17,782 bases of DNA from contig JAMOUT010000001.1 of the NCBI GenBank assembly GCA_027061995.1, positions 1 to 17,782 of the forward strand, read 5' to 3'. The first letter of the stretch is position 1; each line of letters starts with the position of its first letter. Below, piece by piece: positions 452 to 17,590 of the stretch. The DNA comes from Candidatus Aminicenantota bacterium. GTDB lineage: Bacteria > Acidobacteriota > Aminicenantia > JAMOAD01. The notes below the pieces were generated by a model, which was given only the letters and a program-made list of their open reading frames with translations, ran no database searches and was not told the DNA's origin. A program made the position numbers and the translations under genes.

Positions 452-472
452 TTTACCCCTTTGGAGGAAGAT

Positions 473-2017
473 ATGGATAGAAAATTATTGGAACTTGCAA
501 ATCTTAAAGAGGAAGCGCGATTGGGCGGTGGCGAAAAAAGAATAGAAAAACAACATCAAAAGGGGAAATATACGGCAAGGGAGAGAATTCTTAAAATTCT
601 TGATGAGGGGAGTTTCGAGGAATTCGATATGCTGAGAAAACACAGATGCACTGATTTTGATATGGAAAAAAACAGACCCTTAACTGATGGTGTTATAACA
701 GGCTACGGCACGATAAACGGAAGACTTGTTTTCATATTTTCTCAGGATTTTACGATTTTCGGCGGTTCTCTTTCCAAAACTTATGCCGAGAAAATAGTTA
801 AAATTATGGATATGGCTGCAAAAGCCGGAGCTCCGATTATAGGACTAAATGATTCCGGCGGGGCAAGAATTCAGGAGGGAGTTGATTCTCTTGCCGGATA
901 TGCTGATGTATTCCTGAAGAATGTTCTTTATTCGGGAGTTATTCCTCAAATCTCCCTTATACTCGGCCCTTGTGCGGGAGGAGCAGTTTATTCTCCCGCA
1001 ATAACAGATTTTGTAATGATGGTTGAGAATAGTTCATATATGTTTTTAACGGGACCCGGAGTGGTAAAGCAGGTTACACATGAAGATGTTTCAACCGAGC
1101 AGCTCGGAGGAGCCTCTATCCATTCAACAAAAAGCGGAGTGTCTCATTTTGCATATAAAAGCGAAGATGAAGCTTTTGAAGGTTTGAAAAAGCTGTTATC
1201 ATACCTCCCCCAAAATAATGCAAGTTCCCCGATTGTTATGGAATGCACTGATCCCGTAGATAGAATCGATGAGAGTCTTAATTCCATTATCCCCTCCGAT
1301 CACAGCAAAGCTTATGATATGAAAGAGGTTATAAAATTAATCGTGGATAATAATGATTTTTTTGAAATCCAAAGTTCTTTTGCCCCTAATATATTGGTGG
1401 GATTCGCAAGGCTGAATGGCAACAGTGTGGGAATTGTGGCAAATCAACCAAAAGTTATGGCGGGTGTTCTTGATAATAATGCTTCCGTAAAAGCCGCCCG
1501 TTTTGTCAGATTTTGCGATGCTTTCAATATCCCGTTGGTTGTTTTTGAGGATGTTCCAGGATTTATGCCGGGCACGAATCAAGAATATAACGGAATTATA
1601 AGAAACGGAGCAAAACTCCTTTTCGCTTTTGCAGAAGCAACCGTTCCGAAAGTAACGGTTGTTACAAGGAAGGCATACGGAGGAGCATACTGCGTTATGA
1701 ATTCAAAACATATAAGAGGCGATGTAAACTATGCTTGGCCATCCGCTGAAATTGCAGTGATGGGTGCCGAGGGAGCTGTTCAGGTTCTTTATAGAAAAGA
1801 GATTAAAGACTCGGACAATCAAGAGGAGAAAGTTACCGAATTAAAAGATAAATATAATGAACTCTTTGCAAATCCATATAATGCCGCTGAAAAAGGTTAT
1901 ATTGATGATGTTATCGAACCTGCAAACACGAGGGTTAAACTTATAAAAGCATTTGCGATGCTTTCTTCAAAAAGAGATTCAAACCCTCCGAAAAAGCATA
2001 GTAATATCCCTCTATAA
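473..2017 (+). CDS. mmdA: Methylmalonyl-CoA decarboxylase alpha subunit (carboxyltransferase)
   Basis: This 514-residue protein belongs to the acyl-CoA carboxyltransferase family (MmdA/PccB), whose usual length is about 510-520. It transfers the carboxyl group from methylmalonyl-CoA to biotin on the carrier subunit. The N-terminal half has SGGARIQEG (about 128-136) and [11 protein letters not shown] (about 165-175). The C-terminal half has [11 protein letters not shown] (about 357-367) and [10 protein letters not shown] (about 400-409), the glycine-rich loops that bind CoA and biotin. The ATG at 473 is chosen because GGAGG lies 5 bases before it; an in-frame TTG at 461 overlaps the SD site and is unlikely. 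It is the first gene of a decarboxylase operon whose OadG- and OadB-like partners argue for a sodium pump rather than a propionyl-CoA carboxylase. Substrate identity is inferred from the divergent mutase gene. Confidence 0.9.
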
Positions 2018-2027
2018 AGGAGAAATC

Positions 2028-2375
2028 TTGAGTATAAAAGATGCTTTGACTATATCAATTATCGGAATATCAATTGTTTTTATCGGTTTGATTTTAACAA
2101 GCCTATTGATATATTCTTTCTCAATTATAAGGAAAATCGGAGAAAATAATAAAAAATCGCAAATTAATAAAAAAACGAGCAAAAATATTCAAATCAACGA
2201 GAAAGAGATATCGCCTGAAATACTTGCGGTTATATCAGCCATTGTTGAAATAGAGACAAGATTGCAACTCTCTTTAAGGGGAACAAAATGGACTTTTGAT
2301 AAAGATTTTCCGAGAGGATGGTCTGAAGAGGGGAAAATGATAATAAATCCTTTTGAGGGAGGAAAAATAAAATGA
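2028..2375 (+). CDS. mmdD: OadG-like small membrane subunit of the Na+ pump decarboxylase
   Basis: This 115-residue protein starts at TTG 2028, preceded by AGGAG at 2018-2022 with a 5-base spacer. An upstream ATG in the same frame at 1953 lies inside mmdA and has no SD site. Residues about 6-30 form one strongly hydrophobic membrane helix, followed by a polar Lys/Asn-rich linker. A conserved-looking C-terminal part contains PEILAVISAIVEIE and then TKW and RGW. A single N-terminal helix with a soluble tail is the layout of OadG/MmdD subunits, which hold the carboxyltransferase and beta subunits together. It sits 10 bases after mmdA and its stop overlaps the start of mmdC (ATGA). Sequence conservation in this family is low, so the call relies on topology and position. 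Confidence 0.75.
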   Translation: MSIKDALTISIIGISIVFIGLILTSLLIYSFSIIRKIGENNKKSQINKKTSKNIQINEKEISPEILAVISAIVEIETRLQLSLRGTKWTFDKDFPRGWSEEGKMIINPFEGGKIK

Positions 2376-2824
2376 GAGAATATCTGTTGAGTATAGGTGA
2401 TAAAGATTATAAAGCCAAGGTTAAAGAGATAAATTCTCAAGAGGCTGTTGTAATCATAAATGATATTGAATACAGGGTAAAATTAAAACAATTGGGGCGA
2501 AAACAACAGGCTCCCGCAAAAAGAACAATAGAAAACAAAGCCGCTTCAACCCCTACAACAGCAACACAAGTGAAAACAACTCATGAAAGTGCCAATACAA
2601 TAACCTCCCCTCTACCCGGTTTAATTCTCGAGATATCGGTTAAGGAGGGGGAAAGTGTAAAAGCGGGACAAACGGTTTTAGTGATGGAATCAATGAAGAT
2701 GGAAAATCAGATTCAAGCTCCATATGACGGAGTTGTGAAAAAGATTCTTGTTAAAAACGGTGATAGTGTTATTGAGGGTGAAAATCTTCTTGAAATTTCA
2801 AGACCATTTATGACAACTTTATAA
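2372..2824 (+). CDS. mmdC: Biotin carboxyl carrier subunit of the decarboxylase
   Basis: This is a 150-residue biotinyl protein with three parts. A short N-terminal beta domain (about 1-42) precedes a flexible Ala/Thr/Pro/Lys-rich linker (about 45-76). The C-terminal biotinyl domain (about 77-143) has the attachment motif ESMKM, in which Lys109 is the biotinylated residue. The carrier shuttles the carboxyl group from the MmdA active site to the membrane beta subunit. The ATG overlaps the stop of the preceding gene, and a strong GGGAGG lies about 9 bases upstream, so translation is probably coupled. The motif has ESMKM where many carriers have EAMKM; Ser at this position is also common in the family. 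Confidence 0.92.
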   Translation: MREYLLSIGDKDYKAKVKEINSQEAVVIINDIEYRVKLKQLGRKQQAPAKRTIENKAASTPTTATQVKTTHESANTITSPLPGLILEISVKEGESVKAGQTVLVMESMKMENQIQAPYDGVVKKILVKNGDSVIEGENLLEISRPFMTTL

Positions 2825-2833
2825 AGGGATAAG

Positions 2834-4528
2834 ATGAAGATAAAAAACATAATACTATTAATAATTTTCATACTTGTTTCAGCTCACTTATTCGCTTCGG
2901 TAAAATTTAATATAATTGAGAAAAACAGTGAATACAGATATATTAAAATATTTAAAGGAACCGATAGTGGTATTAAGAAAGGGATAAAAGGGGAAGTATA
3001 TAATGAAAAAGAGCTGCAAATAGGGGTTCTTAAAGTTATTTCAACCGATGAATTTGAAAGTATTGCAGAATTGACTCTTAAGAAAAATGAAAAACTTTCC
3101 AATATTAAATTCATATCGATAAAATCTTTAAATCTTGAGAGAATAGTATTTAAACTTGAAAATTCCTCCTCCTATCTGATTATTGACAAAGGGATAAAAG
3201 AGAATATTAAAAAAGGGATGAAGGGGAGTTTGTATTCCAAAGGTAAATTTGCGGGACTTTTCAAAGTTATAAGTTGTTATGATCATAAAAGTATAATACA
3301 AGCTACCAATCTTAATATAGGTTATGATTATATTGATATTGACTCGGGAAAAACAAAAGATTATCTCGCAAGGGTTATCGAAAGCTCGGGTATTGTAAAT
3401 CTGTCCTATAAAAATGTAATAATGATTTTAATAGGAGTTCTTTTTATCTATCTCGGAGTAGCAAAAGATTATGAGCCTCTGCTTCTTGTTCCCATAGGGT
3501 TTGGTATTATTTTGGGTAATATCCCGTTACCTTTACAGATTTTTAATGCTATCTCCATCTATATGATAGATCCGGTTACTCACCAGTATGCTTTTAATAC
3601 CACAACTAACAGTGTTATGGGAATCATTTATTTCGGAGTCAGGAGCGGACTTTTTCCCCCGTTGATCTTCTTGGGCATAGGAGCTATGACGGATTTCACG
3701 GCTCTTTTGTCAAGTCCTAAGAGTGTTTTATTGGGAGCGGCAGCTCAGATCGGTATATTTGCAACTTTTCTCGGGGCACTCGCGATGAAATTTTCTCCCG
3801 CAAATGCAGCTTCCATAGGTATTATCGGAGGAGCTGACGGGCCTACGGCTATTTTCCTTTCTTCAAGATTATCCCCCTCCCTTGTAGGACCCATAGCTAT
3901 TGCCGCTTATTCATATATGGCCATGGTTCCGATAATTCAACCTCCCATAATGAGATTATTGACCACTAAAAAAGAGAGATTGATTAGAATGAAACCGGGG
4001 AGGAAAGTTTCCAAACTCGAAAAAATCGGTTTTCCGATATCAGCATTTATTATAACAACGCTTATAGCTCCCGGAGCCATCCCATTGCTCGGAATGCTTT
4101 TTTTCGGAAATCTTTTAAAAGAATCGGGAGTTACGACAAGGCTTGCCAAAACAGCAGCCAATGCTTTGATAGATATATGCACAATCCTTTTGGGTTTATC
4201 GGTAGGAGCTTCCACAACAGCTCAGGTTTTTTTAAATGAAAAATCAATATTAATCTTTGTTCTCGGAGTTATCTCATTCGGGATTGCAACCGCAGGAGGT
4301 GTTCTTTTTGCAAAATTTATGAATCTTTTCTTAAAGAAAGAAAATAAAATAAATCCTTTAATCGGAGCAGCCGGAGTTTCCGCTGTTCCCGATTCCGCAA
4401 GAGTTGCTCAAATGGTGGGAAGGCAGGAGGACCCGAACAACTATCTTTTGATGCATGCAATGGGTCCCAATGTTGCAGGTGTTATAGGTTCCGCCATAGC
4501 AGCGGGAATCTTTCTCGGAATTTTTTAA
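2834..4528 (+). CDS. mmdB: Na+-translocating decarboxylase beta subunit with extra N-terminal exported domain
   Basis: This 564-residue protein holds two regions. Residues about 190-564 are a normal OadB/MmdB/GcdB beta subunit of many membrane helices. It contains GGADGPTAIF, whose Asp335 matches the Asp essential for carboxybiotin decarboxylation and Na+ transport. It also contains NPLIGAAGVSAVPDSAR (507-523), with the conserved Asn, Gly, Ser and Arg, and then GPNVAGVIGSA. Residues 1-21 are a hydrophobic signal or anchor ending AHLFA. Residues about 22-180 form an extra, probably extracytoplasmic domain of two similar units with the pattern GxxxxIKKGxKGxxY (near 42-56 and 120-134). Beta subunits are usually about 370-430 residues, so this extension is unusual. 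The gene follows mmdC by 9 bases with an SD site. The core function is sure; the role of the added domain is unknown. Confidence 0.93.
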   Translation: MKIKNIILLIIFILVSAHLFASVKFNIIEKNSEYRYIKIFKGTDSGIKKGIKGEVYNEKELQIGVLKVISTDEFESIAELTLKKNEKLSNIKFISIKSLNLERIVFKLENSSSYLIIDKGIKENIKKGMKGSLYSKGKFAGLFKVISCYDHKSIIQATNLNIGYDYIDIDSGKTKDYLARVIESSGIVNLSYKNVIMILIGVLFIYLGVAKDYEPLLLVPIGFGIILGNIPLPLQIFNAISIYMIDPVTHQYAFNTTTNSVMGIIYFGVRSGLFPPLIFLGIGAMTDFTALLSSPKSVLLGAAAQIGIFATFLGALAMKFSPANAASIGIIGGADGPTAIFLSSRLSPSLVGPIAIAAYSYMAMVPIIQPPIMRLLTTKKERLIRMKPGRKVSKLEKIGFPISAFIITTLIAPGAIPLLGMLFFGNLLKESGVTTRLAKTAANALIDICTILLGLSVGASTTAQVFLNEKSILIFVLGVISFGIATAGGVLFAKFMNLFLKKENKINPLIGAAGVSAVPDSARVAQMVGRQEDPNNYLLMHAMGPNVAGVIGSAIAAGIFLGIF

Positions 4529-4539
4529 GGAGTGAAAAA

Positions 4540-5466
4540 ATGGGAAAAATAATAACGGTTGTTCCTAATATTTGTGAAGGTAGGGATAAGGAATTTATTG
4601 AAAACATTACCCAAAAATTAAAGAATATTAAAAACCTTGTTCTTCTCGATGTATCGATGGATAATATAAGAAACAGAACAGTGTTTTCTTTTACGGGTCC
4701 GAAAACCGCAATTTTCGAAGGGGGATACATTTTATATGATGAAGCAATAAAACATATAGATATGAGAAAACATCAGGGGGAATATCCGAGAATAGGAGCT
4801 GTTGATGTTTTTCCCTTTGTTCCCATAAAGGGGGTCTCCATGGAAGAGGTTGTTGAGATATCAAAAGAATTCGCAAGAACAATAGCAGGGAAATTCAATA
4901 TTCCGGTTTATATGTTTAGTGAATCCGCACAATATTCAATGAGAAAAGAGCTTGAAAATATAAGATCGGGTGAATACGAGGGTTTACAGGAAAGACTCAA
5001 AGATCCGATATGGAGACCTGATTTCGGGCCTGTGGAATTTAAACCTGATTTCGGAGCAACCATAATAGGAGCAAGATATCCTCTTTTGAGTTTCAAAGTT
5101 TTGATTAATACAACGGACATTAAAACAATAAAAAGCATATGCAGATCGGTTCAATATTCTTACGGAGGGCTCTCTTTCGTTAAAGCTTTCTCAGGGATAA
5201 ACAAAAATTCGGGGTTGGGACAGATAAGTGTTTCAATATCAAATTTCAGACGGATGCCAATGTATAGAGTTCTCGAATATATAAAAACAGAGGGTAAAAG
5301 ATATGGTGTTAATATAGTTAAAGTTGAGATGATAGGGCTTATCCCCGAAATCGTTTTTCTTGAATCGGTGCTTTATTATATGCAGATACAGGAATTCTCC
5401 TTTGACAGATTATTGGAAAACAGCATACAAAAACATCTCGGAGAAAAAATATTTATATTTGAATAA
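4540..5466 (+). CDS. ftcD: Glutamate formimidoyltransferase
   Basis: This 308-residue protein matches the formiminotransferase domain alone, without the cyclodeaminase domain of the bifunctional animal enzyme. The family moves the formimino group between N-formimino-glutamate and tetrahydrofolate in histidine breakdown. Motifs seen are VVPNICEGRD (7-16), LLDVS...NRTVFSF (35-51), IDMRKHQGEYPRIGAVDV (73-90), a RLKDP...PDFGP stretch, and the C-terminal subdomain with GVNIVKVEMIGLIPE. At position 82 there is Tyr where the mammalian enzyme has the catalytic His82. The gene starts 11 bases after mmdB with the SD AAGGAG, so it is co-transcribed with the sodium-pump operon. No other histidine-utilisation gene is visible, so a link to folate one-carbon flow is also possible. 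Confidence 0.88.
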   Translation: MGKIITVVPNICEGRDKEFIENITQKLKNIKNLVLLDVSMDNIRNRTVFSFTGPKTAIFEGGYILYDEAIKHIDMRKHQGEYPRIGAVDVFPFVPIKGVSMEEVVEISKEFARTIAGKFNIPVYMFSESAQYSMRKELENIRSGEYEGLQERLKDPIWRPDFGPVEFKPDFGATIIGARYPLLSFKVLINTTDIKTIKSICRSVQYSYGGLSFVKAFSGINKNSGLGQISVSISNFRRMPMYRVLEYIKTEGKRYGVNIVKVEMIGLIPEIVFLESVLYYMQIQEFSFDRLLENSIQKHLGEKIFIFE

Positions 5467-5473
5467 AAAATTC

Positions 5474-5502
5474 TTGACCTCTTTTTTTTTATATGTTAAA
5501 TA
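5474..5502 (+). promoter_or_regulatory. Promoter of the exbD-like gene
   Basis: TTGACC (5474-5479) and TAAATA (5497-5502) are 17 bases apart, with an extended -10 TG at 5494-5495. The -10 region TGTTAAAT is the same as in the mmd promoter. The predicted start near 5509 gives a leader of about 14 bases. Confidence 0.6.
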
Positions 5503-5522
5503 TAAATATACGGGAGGTCAAA

Positions 5523-5921
5523 ATGAATATTTCGGGAAAAGGGAAAATAGTTGTAAGATCCGACCCTGATGTGGTTCCTTTCATAGATATAATATTGGTT
5601 CTTTTGGTCATTTTTATGGTGATATCTCCTTTAAACAGAAAAGGGGTTGATATGATTTTGCCGGAAGATAGTGGTTGCGGAGGATCGCCTTCTATTATTT
5701 TATCCATAAAACAAGATAAAAGCCTTAATATTAACGGGAAACTTATCCCGAGGAAAGAACTTAAGAAAACGATAAGAGATATATATTCGACCAGACTCGA
5801 TAAAACACTTTTCCTAAGAGCAAGCACAAAATTAAAATATAAGGATATTGTTGATATTATGGATATTATGCAAGGAGCCGGAGTTACAATCGTTCTTTAT
5901 ACGAATCACTACGAAGAATAA
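5523..5921 (+). CDS. ExbD/TolR-family proton-channel protein (orphan)
   Basis: This 132-residue protein has the ExbD/TolR layout: a short cytoplasmic N-terminus, one membrane helix (about 17-36), and a periplasmic domain (about 42-132). The helix carries the signature PFIDIILVLLVIFMV, in which Asp22 matches the proton-carrying Asp of the family. These proteins work with an ExbB/TolQ/MotA-type channel to drive outer-membrane transport or envelope constriction. No ExbB/TolQ or TonB gene is present here, so its partner must lie elsewhere. The ATG at 5523 is chosen for the GGGAGG 6 bases upstream; an earlier ATG at 5493 falls within the promoter. The presence of the family suggests a two-membrane envelope. 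Confidence 0.85.
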   Translation: MNISGKGKIVVRSDPDVVPFIDIILVLLVIFMVISPLNRKGVDMILPEDSGCGGSPSIILSIKQDKSLNINGKLIPRKELKKTIRDIYSTRLDKTLFLRASTKLKYKDIVDIMDIMQGAGVTIVLYTNHYEE

Positions 5922-13136: not shown

Positions 13137-14153
13137 TCAATTATCTTTGTCTTCAAACAGATGAAGATACTTCCCATAGCCCTCTTCTTCCATTTTTTTT
13201 ACGGGAATAAATCTTAATGCCGCGGAATTTATGCAGTATCTTAATCCCACAGGCTTGGGACCATCTTTGAAAAGATGCCCGAGGTGAGAATCTCCGTATC
13301 CGCTTCTTACCTCCGTTCTTATCATATTCCCGCTTTTATCAACTTTAGTTATAATGTTTTTATGCTCAAGAGGTTTTGTAAAACTCGGCCAACCGCTTCC
13401 CGAATCATATTTATCAATAGAGCTGAAAAGAGGTTCTCCAGATACAATATCAACATAAATCCCCTCCTCCGTATTATTATAATATCTGTTTTCAAAAGGG
13501 GGTTCTGTTCCATTTTCCTGAGTAATATTATATTGTAATTCCGTTAAATTCTCTTTTAATTCTTCTATCATAGGTTTTTTAAAATTTTTCCATGGTTCAC
13601 TAAAATTCTTTTTATCCTTTTTATTCCACAACATTATTATAAAAGGGGTTCTCCCCGAAGCAATACTGTATCTTTTATATTCTTCAGGATGTTTCTTGCA
13701 ATAATTCTGATGATAAGTTTCAGCTTTATAAATTTTTCCCGCTTTTTTAATCTCTGTTACAATAGGTTCGTCAAATACACCCGAGTTTTCAATCTCCTCT
13801 TTAGATTTTTCGGCAATCTTTTTTTGTTCTTCATCATGATAAAATATGGCTGTTCTGTATTGAGAACCTCTGTCCGCAAATTGTCCTCCGGCATCGGTGG
13901 GATCTATATTATGCCAAAAAATATCAAGAAGCTTTTTATATGAAATAATATCACTGTCATAAATTATTCGAACAGCTTCATAGTGTCCCGTTGTTCCGGC
14001 GCATACCTCTTCATAAGTGGGGTTTTCCTTTATTCCTCCCGTATAACAGGAAAAAGATTCAATAACTCCGGAAATATCTTTAAATGCGGCTTCAAGGCAC
14101 CAAAAACATCCTCCGGCAAATGTGGCTTTCCTAAGTTTCGGATTATTGTTCAT
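13137..14153 (-). CDS. msrAB: Fused peptide methionine sulfoxide reductase MsrA/MsrB
   Basis: This 338-residue fusion repairs both epimers of methionine sulfoxide. The MsrA part (about 5-180) has GGCFWC, with catalytic Cys16, and GTTGHYEAV. It also has the [17 protein letters not shown] segment and a further cysteine, Cys152, in [10 protein letters not shown]. The MsrB part (about 200-330) has [11 protein letters not shown], the [13 protein letters not shown] segment and [13 protein letters not shown], with catalytic Cys307. The zinc-binding CxxC pairs of some MsrBs are absent, and Cys307 is the only cysteine in the MsrB half. Ser253 sits where many MsrBs carry the resolving Cys. No signal peptide is present at the chosen ATG 14153, which has GGAGGTG upstream, so the protein is probably cytoplasmic. 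An in-frame start at 14198 would add a hydrophobic stretch but lacks support. Confidence 0.94.
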
Positions 14154-14228
14154 AACCACACCTCCAAATGAAAAATTTAAAAAGAGAGATATAATCAAGA
14201 ATAAGAATATGTTTTTTTTTCATTTAAC

Positions 14229-16102: not shown

Positions 16103-17491
16103 TTATACATTATTTTTCCCGATTTTTTCATCAATAACTTTTATATCAAATACGGAACCCGTGATATTACGGGTTATAATATTAAGAGTTTGAACCGCTA
16201 TAAATTCGGGAGATAAGAGAGTCAAAGCATCCTCTTTACCGAAAGCATTAAATCTCATTGGAGTTGCGGCTCTCTCGGGATTTATCACATTAACCTTAAT
16301 ATTATAATTTATCAATTCATCCGCAAGAGCCTGAGCAAAATTAATAATCCCCGCTTTTGATGATGAATAGGGGGAATAACCGGCTCTTCCTCTTGTATAT
16401 GAGCTTGATGCAAAAAACAGAATACTCCCTTCCGATTTTTTCAAATAGGGGATTGAAGCTTTTGCAGCATACATATTGCCGAGAAGATTTGTTTCTATCT
16501 GCTCCTTTAAATCATCAACATCTATTGTCTCTATAAAACCGAATTTTAGACGGGCGGCAGTGATTATCACTCCATTGATTTTGCCCTCTTTTTTATTAAT
16601 CTCTTTCAAGGATTTTTCGCAAATATGATAATCTCTTATATCAACACCGTCTGAAAATGACAAGGAATAAGGTTTTGCCCCTATCTCCTTTAATATATCA
16701 AAGATACTTTTCCCTATTCCGCTTGAACCTCCGAATATAACAAAAACTTTGTTTTTAAAATATTTTTTAAGAGATTGTTTATCAACCTTATCTATATTCT
16801 TGTTTTTTATCTGAAAAATTTTATCCGCTATATGGATATCTATAGGATATGTTATTTTAATGTTATAATCCGAACCATTGACAACGAATATATCGGATAG
16901 TTGAAATTTCAAAATCAGAGAACAATCATCCGTGGCATTAAAAAAGCTCTCTTTTAAAGCAAGTTGATGAGCTTTTTTTATCAGTTTAAGTTTAAATGCC
17001 TGAGGTGTCTGCCCCCTCCTGAGATATTTTCTTGCGGGAATATCTTTTATAATATTATTTTCATCTATCCTGATTATAGTATCCGGTGATGGTATTGCAA
17101 CATCAATAGCATCATATTTTTCCAATTTTTTAATAATATTATCAATAATTTCGGAAGATAAAAATGGGCGAACAGCATCATGAATCAAAACATTTTCAAA
17201 ATTATCCGAGGCTGCCGAAATCCCGATATAGGATGACTCTTGTCTTGTTTTACCCCCTTTTAAAACTTTTTTTACTTTTTTATATGAGTTTTTTTCAATT
17301 AACTCAATCGTTTTATCATAATACAAAGGGTTTGTTACTATATGGATGGCATGTATATCAGGATGATTTTCAAACTTTTCTATCGTATGCTCAATAATGG
17401 ATTTTCCCGCAAGTTTTAAAAATTGTTTCGGAAACTCGTTTTTAAGTCTTGAACCCGAACCTCCGGCAAGAATAATAGCAAGATTCTTCAT
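16103..17491 (-). CDS. Bifunctional cytidylyltransferase/SDR reductase, CDP-ribitol synthase-like (Acs1/Bcs1 type)
   Basis: This 462-residue protein fuses two enzymes. Residues about 1-230 are an IspD/TarI-type cytidylyltransferase with ILAGGSGSR (7-15), FPKQF (20-24), HDAVRPF (104-110) and the closing ITYPIDIHIADKI. Residues about 245-462 are a short-chain dehydrogenase with the cofactor loop GGSSGIG (254-260), a serine cluster at 362-364, and the catalytic YSSSK (Tyr375, Lys379). The arrangement and length match Haemophilus Acs1/Bcs1, which reduces ribulose 5-phosphate and makes CDP-ribitol. The adjacent glycerophosphotransferase-family gene supports a polyol-phosphate product. ATG 17491 is chosen by family N-terminus; a GTG at 17509 is possible, and neither has an SD site. 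A role as IspD of isoprenoid synthesis is unlikely given the fusion. Confidence 0.85.
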   Translation of the reverse strand: MKNLAIILAGGSGSRLKNEFPKQFLKLAGKSIIEHTIEKFENHPDIHAIHIVTNPLYYDKTIELIEKNSYKKVKKVLKGGKTRQESSYIGISAASDNFENVLIHDAVRPFLSSEIIDNIIKKLEKYDAIDVAIPSPDTIIRIDENNIIKDIPARKYLRRGQTPQAFKLKLIKKAHQLALKESFFNATDDCSLILKFQLSDIFVVNGSDYNIKITYPIDIHIADKIFQIKNKNIDKVDKQSLKKYFKNKVFVIFGGSSGIGKSIFDILKEIGAKPYSLSFSDGVDIRDYHICEKSLKEINKKEGKINGVIITAARLKFGFIETIDVDDLKEQIETNLLGNMYAAKASIPYLKKSEGSILFFASSSYTRGRAGYSPYSSSKAGIINFAQALADELINYNIKVNVINPERAATPMRFNAFGKEDALTLLSPEFIAVQTLNIITRNITGSVFDIKVIDEKIGKNNV

Positions 17492-17590
17492 AATAAAAAA
17501 TTTTACCACAAATAGGGTTTTTAAAAAAGGTTGTTTTTAATAAATCACGAAGTTATATTTACGAAAATATCCCTATCTATAACCACTTTT

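Follow-up and report, generated by a model that had tools for sequence, protein, structure and literature searches.

Results

The analysed window, a stretch of 17,782 nucleotides from a Candidatus Aminicenantota bacterium, carries a cassette of five genes, MmdA, gamma, biotin carrier, beta and FtcD-like, in an order found again in relatives with enough flanking sequence (Table 1). The beta-subunit gene starts at the first in-frame ATG, preceded by an in-frame stop three codons upstream and by a ribosome-binding-like GGGA 7-10 bases 5' of the ATG. Its product exceeds the curated cut-offs of both beta-subunit models (PF03977, 505 bits against 31.6; TIGR01109, 491.5 bits against 190.6), and the match sets in only at residue 193 (PF03977) or 194 (TIGR01109). 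The first-pass annotation had proposed that an extra domain precedes the membrane core, and this is borne out; the domain is missing from the ordinary beta subunits of 104 comparison loci. The length of about 190 residues given there needs trimming: the extra part is real and ends at about residue 175-190, and residues 177-190, which form a helix ahead of the first transmembrane segment (T1), are the counterpart of the usual start of short beta subunits, about 20-30 residues ahead of T1.

Table 1. Features of the decarboxylase cassette in the window (+, forward strand).
Feature	Position	Strand	Basis
Carboxyltransferase (MmdA type)	461..2017	+	PF01039, 661 bits; TIGR01117 (mmdA), 783 bits, below the 999-bit cut-off
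OadG-type gamma subunit (start approximate)	2031..2375	+	PF04277, 49 bits (cut-off 27)
Biotin carrier protein	2372..2824	+	PF00364, 73 bits
Na+-pump decarboxylase beta subunit (MmdB), 564 residues	2834..4528	+	
Putative Sec-type signal peptide, residues 1-21, MKIKNIILLIIFILVSAHLFA	2834..2896	+	Positive n-region, hydrophobic core, LFA/SV; AF2 helix 3-18
Predicted first beta-barrel unit, strands about residues 24-96	2903..3121	+	AF2 pLDDT >90 over most; profile homology to unit 2
Predicted second beta-barrel unit, strands about residues 101-174	3134..3355	+	AF2 model; alignment; profile homology to unit 1
OAD_beta core, residues 193-564	3410..4525	+	PF03977 and TIGR01109; Na+/decarboxylation residues conserved
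Clade-specific conserved T2-T3' loop, probably periplasmic, PLPLQIFNAISIYMIDPVTHQYAFN	3524..3598	+	YMIDP-type motif
FtcD-like protein, Tyr at catalytic His82 position	4540..5466	+	TIGR02024, 320.7 bits (cut-off 221)

Compared with known OadB/MmdB/GcdB proteins (PF03977, TIGR01109; StOAD, 6iva/6iww), the window protein has the entire membrane core and, within it, the residues reported to bind Na+ and to decarboxylate carboxybiotin, but adds about 175 N-terminal residues comprising the signal peptide and two barrels. StOAD T148, D149, D203, Y227, S382, R389 and N412 (numbering from PMC7274780) correspond to T286, D287, D335, Y359, S516, R523 and N546, and all seven are invariant in the alignment of the extended family. 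Since the pump residues are intact, the extended beta subunit is predicted to be a working-type Na+ pump, transporting Na+ by decarboxylation and carrying a clade-specific periplasmic module. The enzyme would be an acyl-CoA decarboxylase that depends on biotin and extrudes Na+, with methylmalonyl-CoA as its most likely substrate; methylmalonyl-CoA mutase, present in 14/14 cassette genomes, fits this substrate but is a common gene.

Elsewhere in the window, a lone TolR/ExbD-like gene (5493-5921) lies 3' of the FtcD-like gene, and reading of the sequence alone points to an apparent MsrA-MsrB fusion (13137-14198) and to a fusion of an IspD-type nucleotidyltransferase with a short-chain dehydrogenase, resembling ribitol-phosphate enzymes (16103-17509).

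The extension begins with what the first-pass annotation had called a signal or anchor. Its exported nature stands, but the N-terminal helix, with its LFA/SV site at residue 21, looks by rule of thumb more like a cleavable signal peptide than a permanent anchor; comparable n-, h- and c-regions are present in the 18 extended sequences examined. AF2 run on the 18-sequence alignment models the extension with a pLDDT of 88 as two tandem six-stranded beta-barrels (residues ~24-174), the full layout being a helix at 3-18, strands at 24-174 in two alike sets, the pre-T1 helix and T1. A full-length model from 18 close homologues has the same secondary structure in the extension, together with an unreliable membrane core (pLDDT 56). 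The suspected similarity between the two units was also borne out: they align with a Smith-Waterman score of 80 in the window protein against 29.5+/-5.5 for shuffles (z = 9.2), their likeness beats shuffles at p<=0.03 in 16/18 homologues, and profile-profile comparison gives a probability of 98.3% (E = 2e-14, 62 columns). Conserved positions of the extension are mainly glycine, aromatic and Lys-Gly, K130-G131 being invariant in the second unit, and the extended-family alignment of the extension holds no conserved acidic/His/Cys constellation or metal-type site. These conserved positions are of a structural kind.

A resemblance to FlgT and MreC had been suspected from the repeat pattern, and structure prediction with a fold search had been proposed to check it; a single modelled barrel indeed matched those of MreC, the FlgT C-terminal domain and V-type ATPase subunits. 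The best Foldseek matches are MreC chains, aligned along the whole extension with an rmsd near 20 A across both barrels. With VIA-align, one barrel superposes on MreC with Z 10.5 (rmsd 2.1 over 71 residues), on FlgT-C (3w1e) with Z 9.3 (rmsd 1.9 over 69 residues) and on the N-terminal (crown) barrels of V/F-type ATPase A/B subunits with Z about 9 (rmsd about 2 A, about 70 residues). Because these superpositions span residues 21-176 while aligning just about 70 residues, a pattern also seen in the MreC chains, one barrel is probably assembled from non-adjacent segments in the model.

Membership of either named family failed at the sequence level. The MreC model PF04085 reaches 17.5-18.1 bits where 28 are required, and does so in 1/18 members, and hhalign against an MreC profile gives 7-24%, over just a 16-18 residue motif; FlgT_C gives no match, either to the window protein (E<=10) or to the 18 members (E<=1). 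A PDB sequence search with the extension profile returned nothing significant. Periplasmic MreC barrels (PF04085; 6zlv, 2j5u) share the single-barrel fold and a short glycine motif with the extension, which differs in lacking a coiled coil ahead of the barrels and in their relative placement. FlgT-C shares the six-stranded single-barrel fold, but no flagellar context surrounds the extended beta subunit; the ATPase barrel is likewise six-stranded, but it crowns a soluble hexamer and has no fusion to a membrane pump subunit. The likeness to MreC and FlgT is one of fold only, a common fold and not membership.

A search for further extended beta subunits, also proposed at the outset, revealed that the fusion defines a lineage: all 33 non-redundant extended sequences fall into one clade (100/97) when the tree leaves out both the extension and the T2-T3' loop, and the extension hence has a single origin. 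Scanning of genome contigs yielded 19 extended loci; apart from L014, each is labelled Acidobacteriota or one of its classes, and we place L014 in Holophagae because its RpoB is 80% identical to that of Geothrix. Of the genomes sampled within the phylum, 11 had a match to the extension itself, others carried short forms alone, and five had both forms. The extension is kept across Aminicenantia, Holophagae, Thermoanaerobaculia and Vicinamibacteria with low identity between classes, about 30%. Acidobacteriota account for 32 of the 33 sequences, the exception belonging to another phylum by RpoB. L150 (genome G657) lies in the extended clade, whereas its RpoB, compared by pairwise identities since rows G054 and G083 of the tree are clearly misplaced long branches, is 62-67% identical to that of several non-Acidobacteriota and about 48-51% to that of Acidobacteriota; this combination suggests that its cassette was acquired by horizontal transfer.

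Three variants forming one genus-level group (L121, L122 and L124; 490-residue frames) have one barrel and are nested in the two-barrel clade, so one unit was most likely lost and would be dispensable; scores for the kept unit favour unit 2 in just 11-12/18 comparisons. In 11 close pairs dN/dS is 0.16-0.34 for the extension and 0.03-0.20 for the core. The extension is therefore under purifying selection in 11/11 pairs and functional, yet changes faster than the core; such constrained but looser evolution is scaffold-like. A distant beta subunit of the Aminicenantia class, L135, has another kind of N-terminal extension, a membrane anchor followed by a low-complexity linker, with no barrels.

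The side of the membrane on which the extension lies can be deduced from the solved homologue. StOAD Glu40, right after T1 in the motif KKFEP, sits on the cytoplasmic face (PMC7274780), and the window protein has KDYEP at this place. Hence, T1 should cross the membrane inwards, and whatever precedes it, including the extension, should be periplasmic, on the Na+-exit side, as the first-pass annotation had anticipated; this placement agrees with the signal peptide. Two flavobacterial short beta subunits (L051, L068) have a signal-peptide-like N-terminus of their own, about 30 residues long, in accord with T1 entering from the periplasm. The T2-T3' loop, whose YMIDP-type motif occurs in all extended loci and in no short locus, takes the position that domain E, which is exposed to solvent, has in StOAD (PMC7274780); the loop is distinct from that domain.

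The fifth gene is as restricted as the extension: an FtcD-like gene lies directly downstream of the beta gene at 48/48 extended loci and at 0/104 short loci, 93 of the latter having enough flank to reveal it and some loci representing the same genome twice. As the extended clade has one origin, this co-occurrence amounts to one inherited cassette and one evolutionary event. Position 82 of the cassette protein is Tyr or Phe in 45/45 readable copies (some redundant) and His in 8/8 readable non-cassette copies; His82 is the proposed catalytic base of mammalian formiminotransferase (PMC12622545). Cassette genomes usually encode a second, full-length FTCD elsewhere. The cassette protein, which we expect to be cytoplasmic, passes TIGR02024, so automatic annotation will name it an active FtcD; a misannotation or a new function is probable. 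A link to histidine degradation was dropped as unspecific, since urocanase occurs in 14/14 cassette genomes but also in 124/142 Aminicenantia genomes.

Discussion

Decarboxylase Na+ pumps are known as compact machines of three or four parts that expose almost nothing beyond the membrane where Na+ leaves. In the open-access papers searched, we found neither an extension or periplasmic domain of the beta subunit nor a linked formiminotransferase; the two-barrel extension hence seems to be previously undescribed.

We propose, with about even confidence, that the exported two-barrel module acts as a structural collar stabilising the beta trimer. The signal peptide would start export of the N-terminus, the module would fold in the periplasm, and T1 would afterwards enter the membrane from outside, as in solved OadB. 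The StOAD beta subunit is trimeric, with a central cavity that faces the periplasm (PMC7274780), so three copies could form a collar of up to six barrels above the Na+-exit face. This collar would be non-catalytic, stabilising or spacing the trimer, and would probably touch the T2-T3' loop of the clade, which should lie on that face too. We favour such a non-catalytic role because the extension has no conserved polar residues, evolves faster than the core, can apparently dispense with one unit and resembles structural barrels.

The barrels may instead be an adaptor, docking the pump to a separate partner in the periplasm or envelope and not acting on the trimer, a reading that we regard as less likely than the trimer-stabilising collar although it accounts for the same facts. 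FlgT and MreC barrels dock in ring or elongation complexes. The nearest folds to the extension are such envelope protein-interaction barrels, and partner-facing domains often evolve faster than the core, as the extension does; however, fold likeness is no proof of a binding role, and the conserved cassette holds no gene for a periplasmic partner.

Considerably less probable is that the extension serves insertion or assembly only, or that it is carried along as a tolerated passenger of little function. Its low identity between classes and the loss of one unit in a genus-level group would fit, but purifying selection in every pair tested and retention across four Acidobacteriota classes, as well as in an apparently transferred copy, speak against it. 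A sensor of a periplasmic ligand or ion that regulates the pump would explain the position on the Na+-exit side and the presence in all cassette members; given that the alignment has no conserved polar or metal-type site and that loss of one of the two units is tolerated, we hold this to be highly improbable. Finally, an annotation artefact, with the true translation start near residue 185, where short beta subunits begin, is contradicted by protein-level conservation and a dN/dS well below 1, as well as by the signal peptide, the ribosome-binding-like site and the confident model, and has a negligible chance of being correct.

Beyond the trimer-stabilising collar itself, we tentatively suggest, while leaning against so broad a claim, that these pumps make up a functional class of their own, defined jointly by the extended beta subunit, its special loop and the Tyr82 FtcD-like protein, with a barrel collar outside and an extra cytoplasmic accessory that is no longer a formiminotransferase. 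The two-barrel module, the new loop and the fifth gene, kept across several classes, point to an unrecognised layer of assembly or partnership in these pumps, and neighbouring genes annotated as glutamate formimidoyltransferase may have another function. Because a Geothrix MAG has the cassette, cultured relatives may allow these proposals to be tested.
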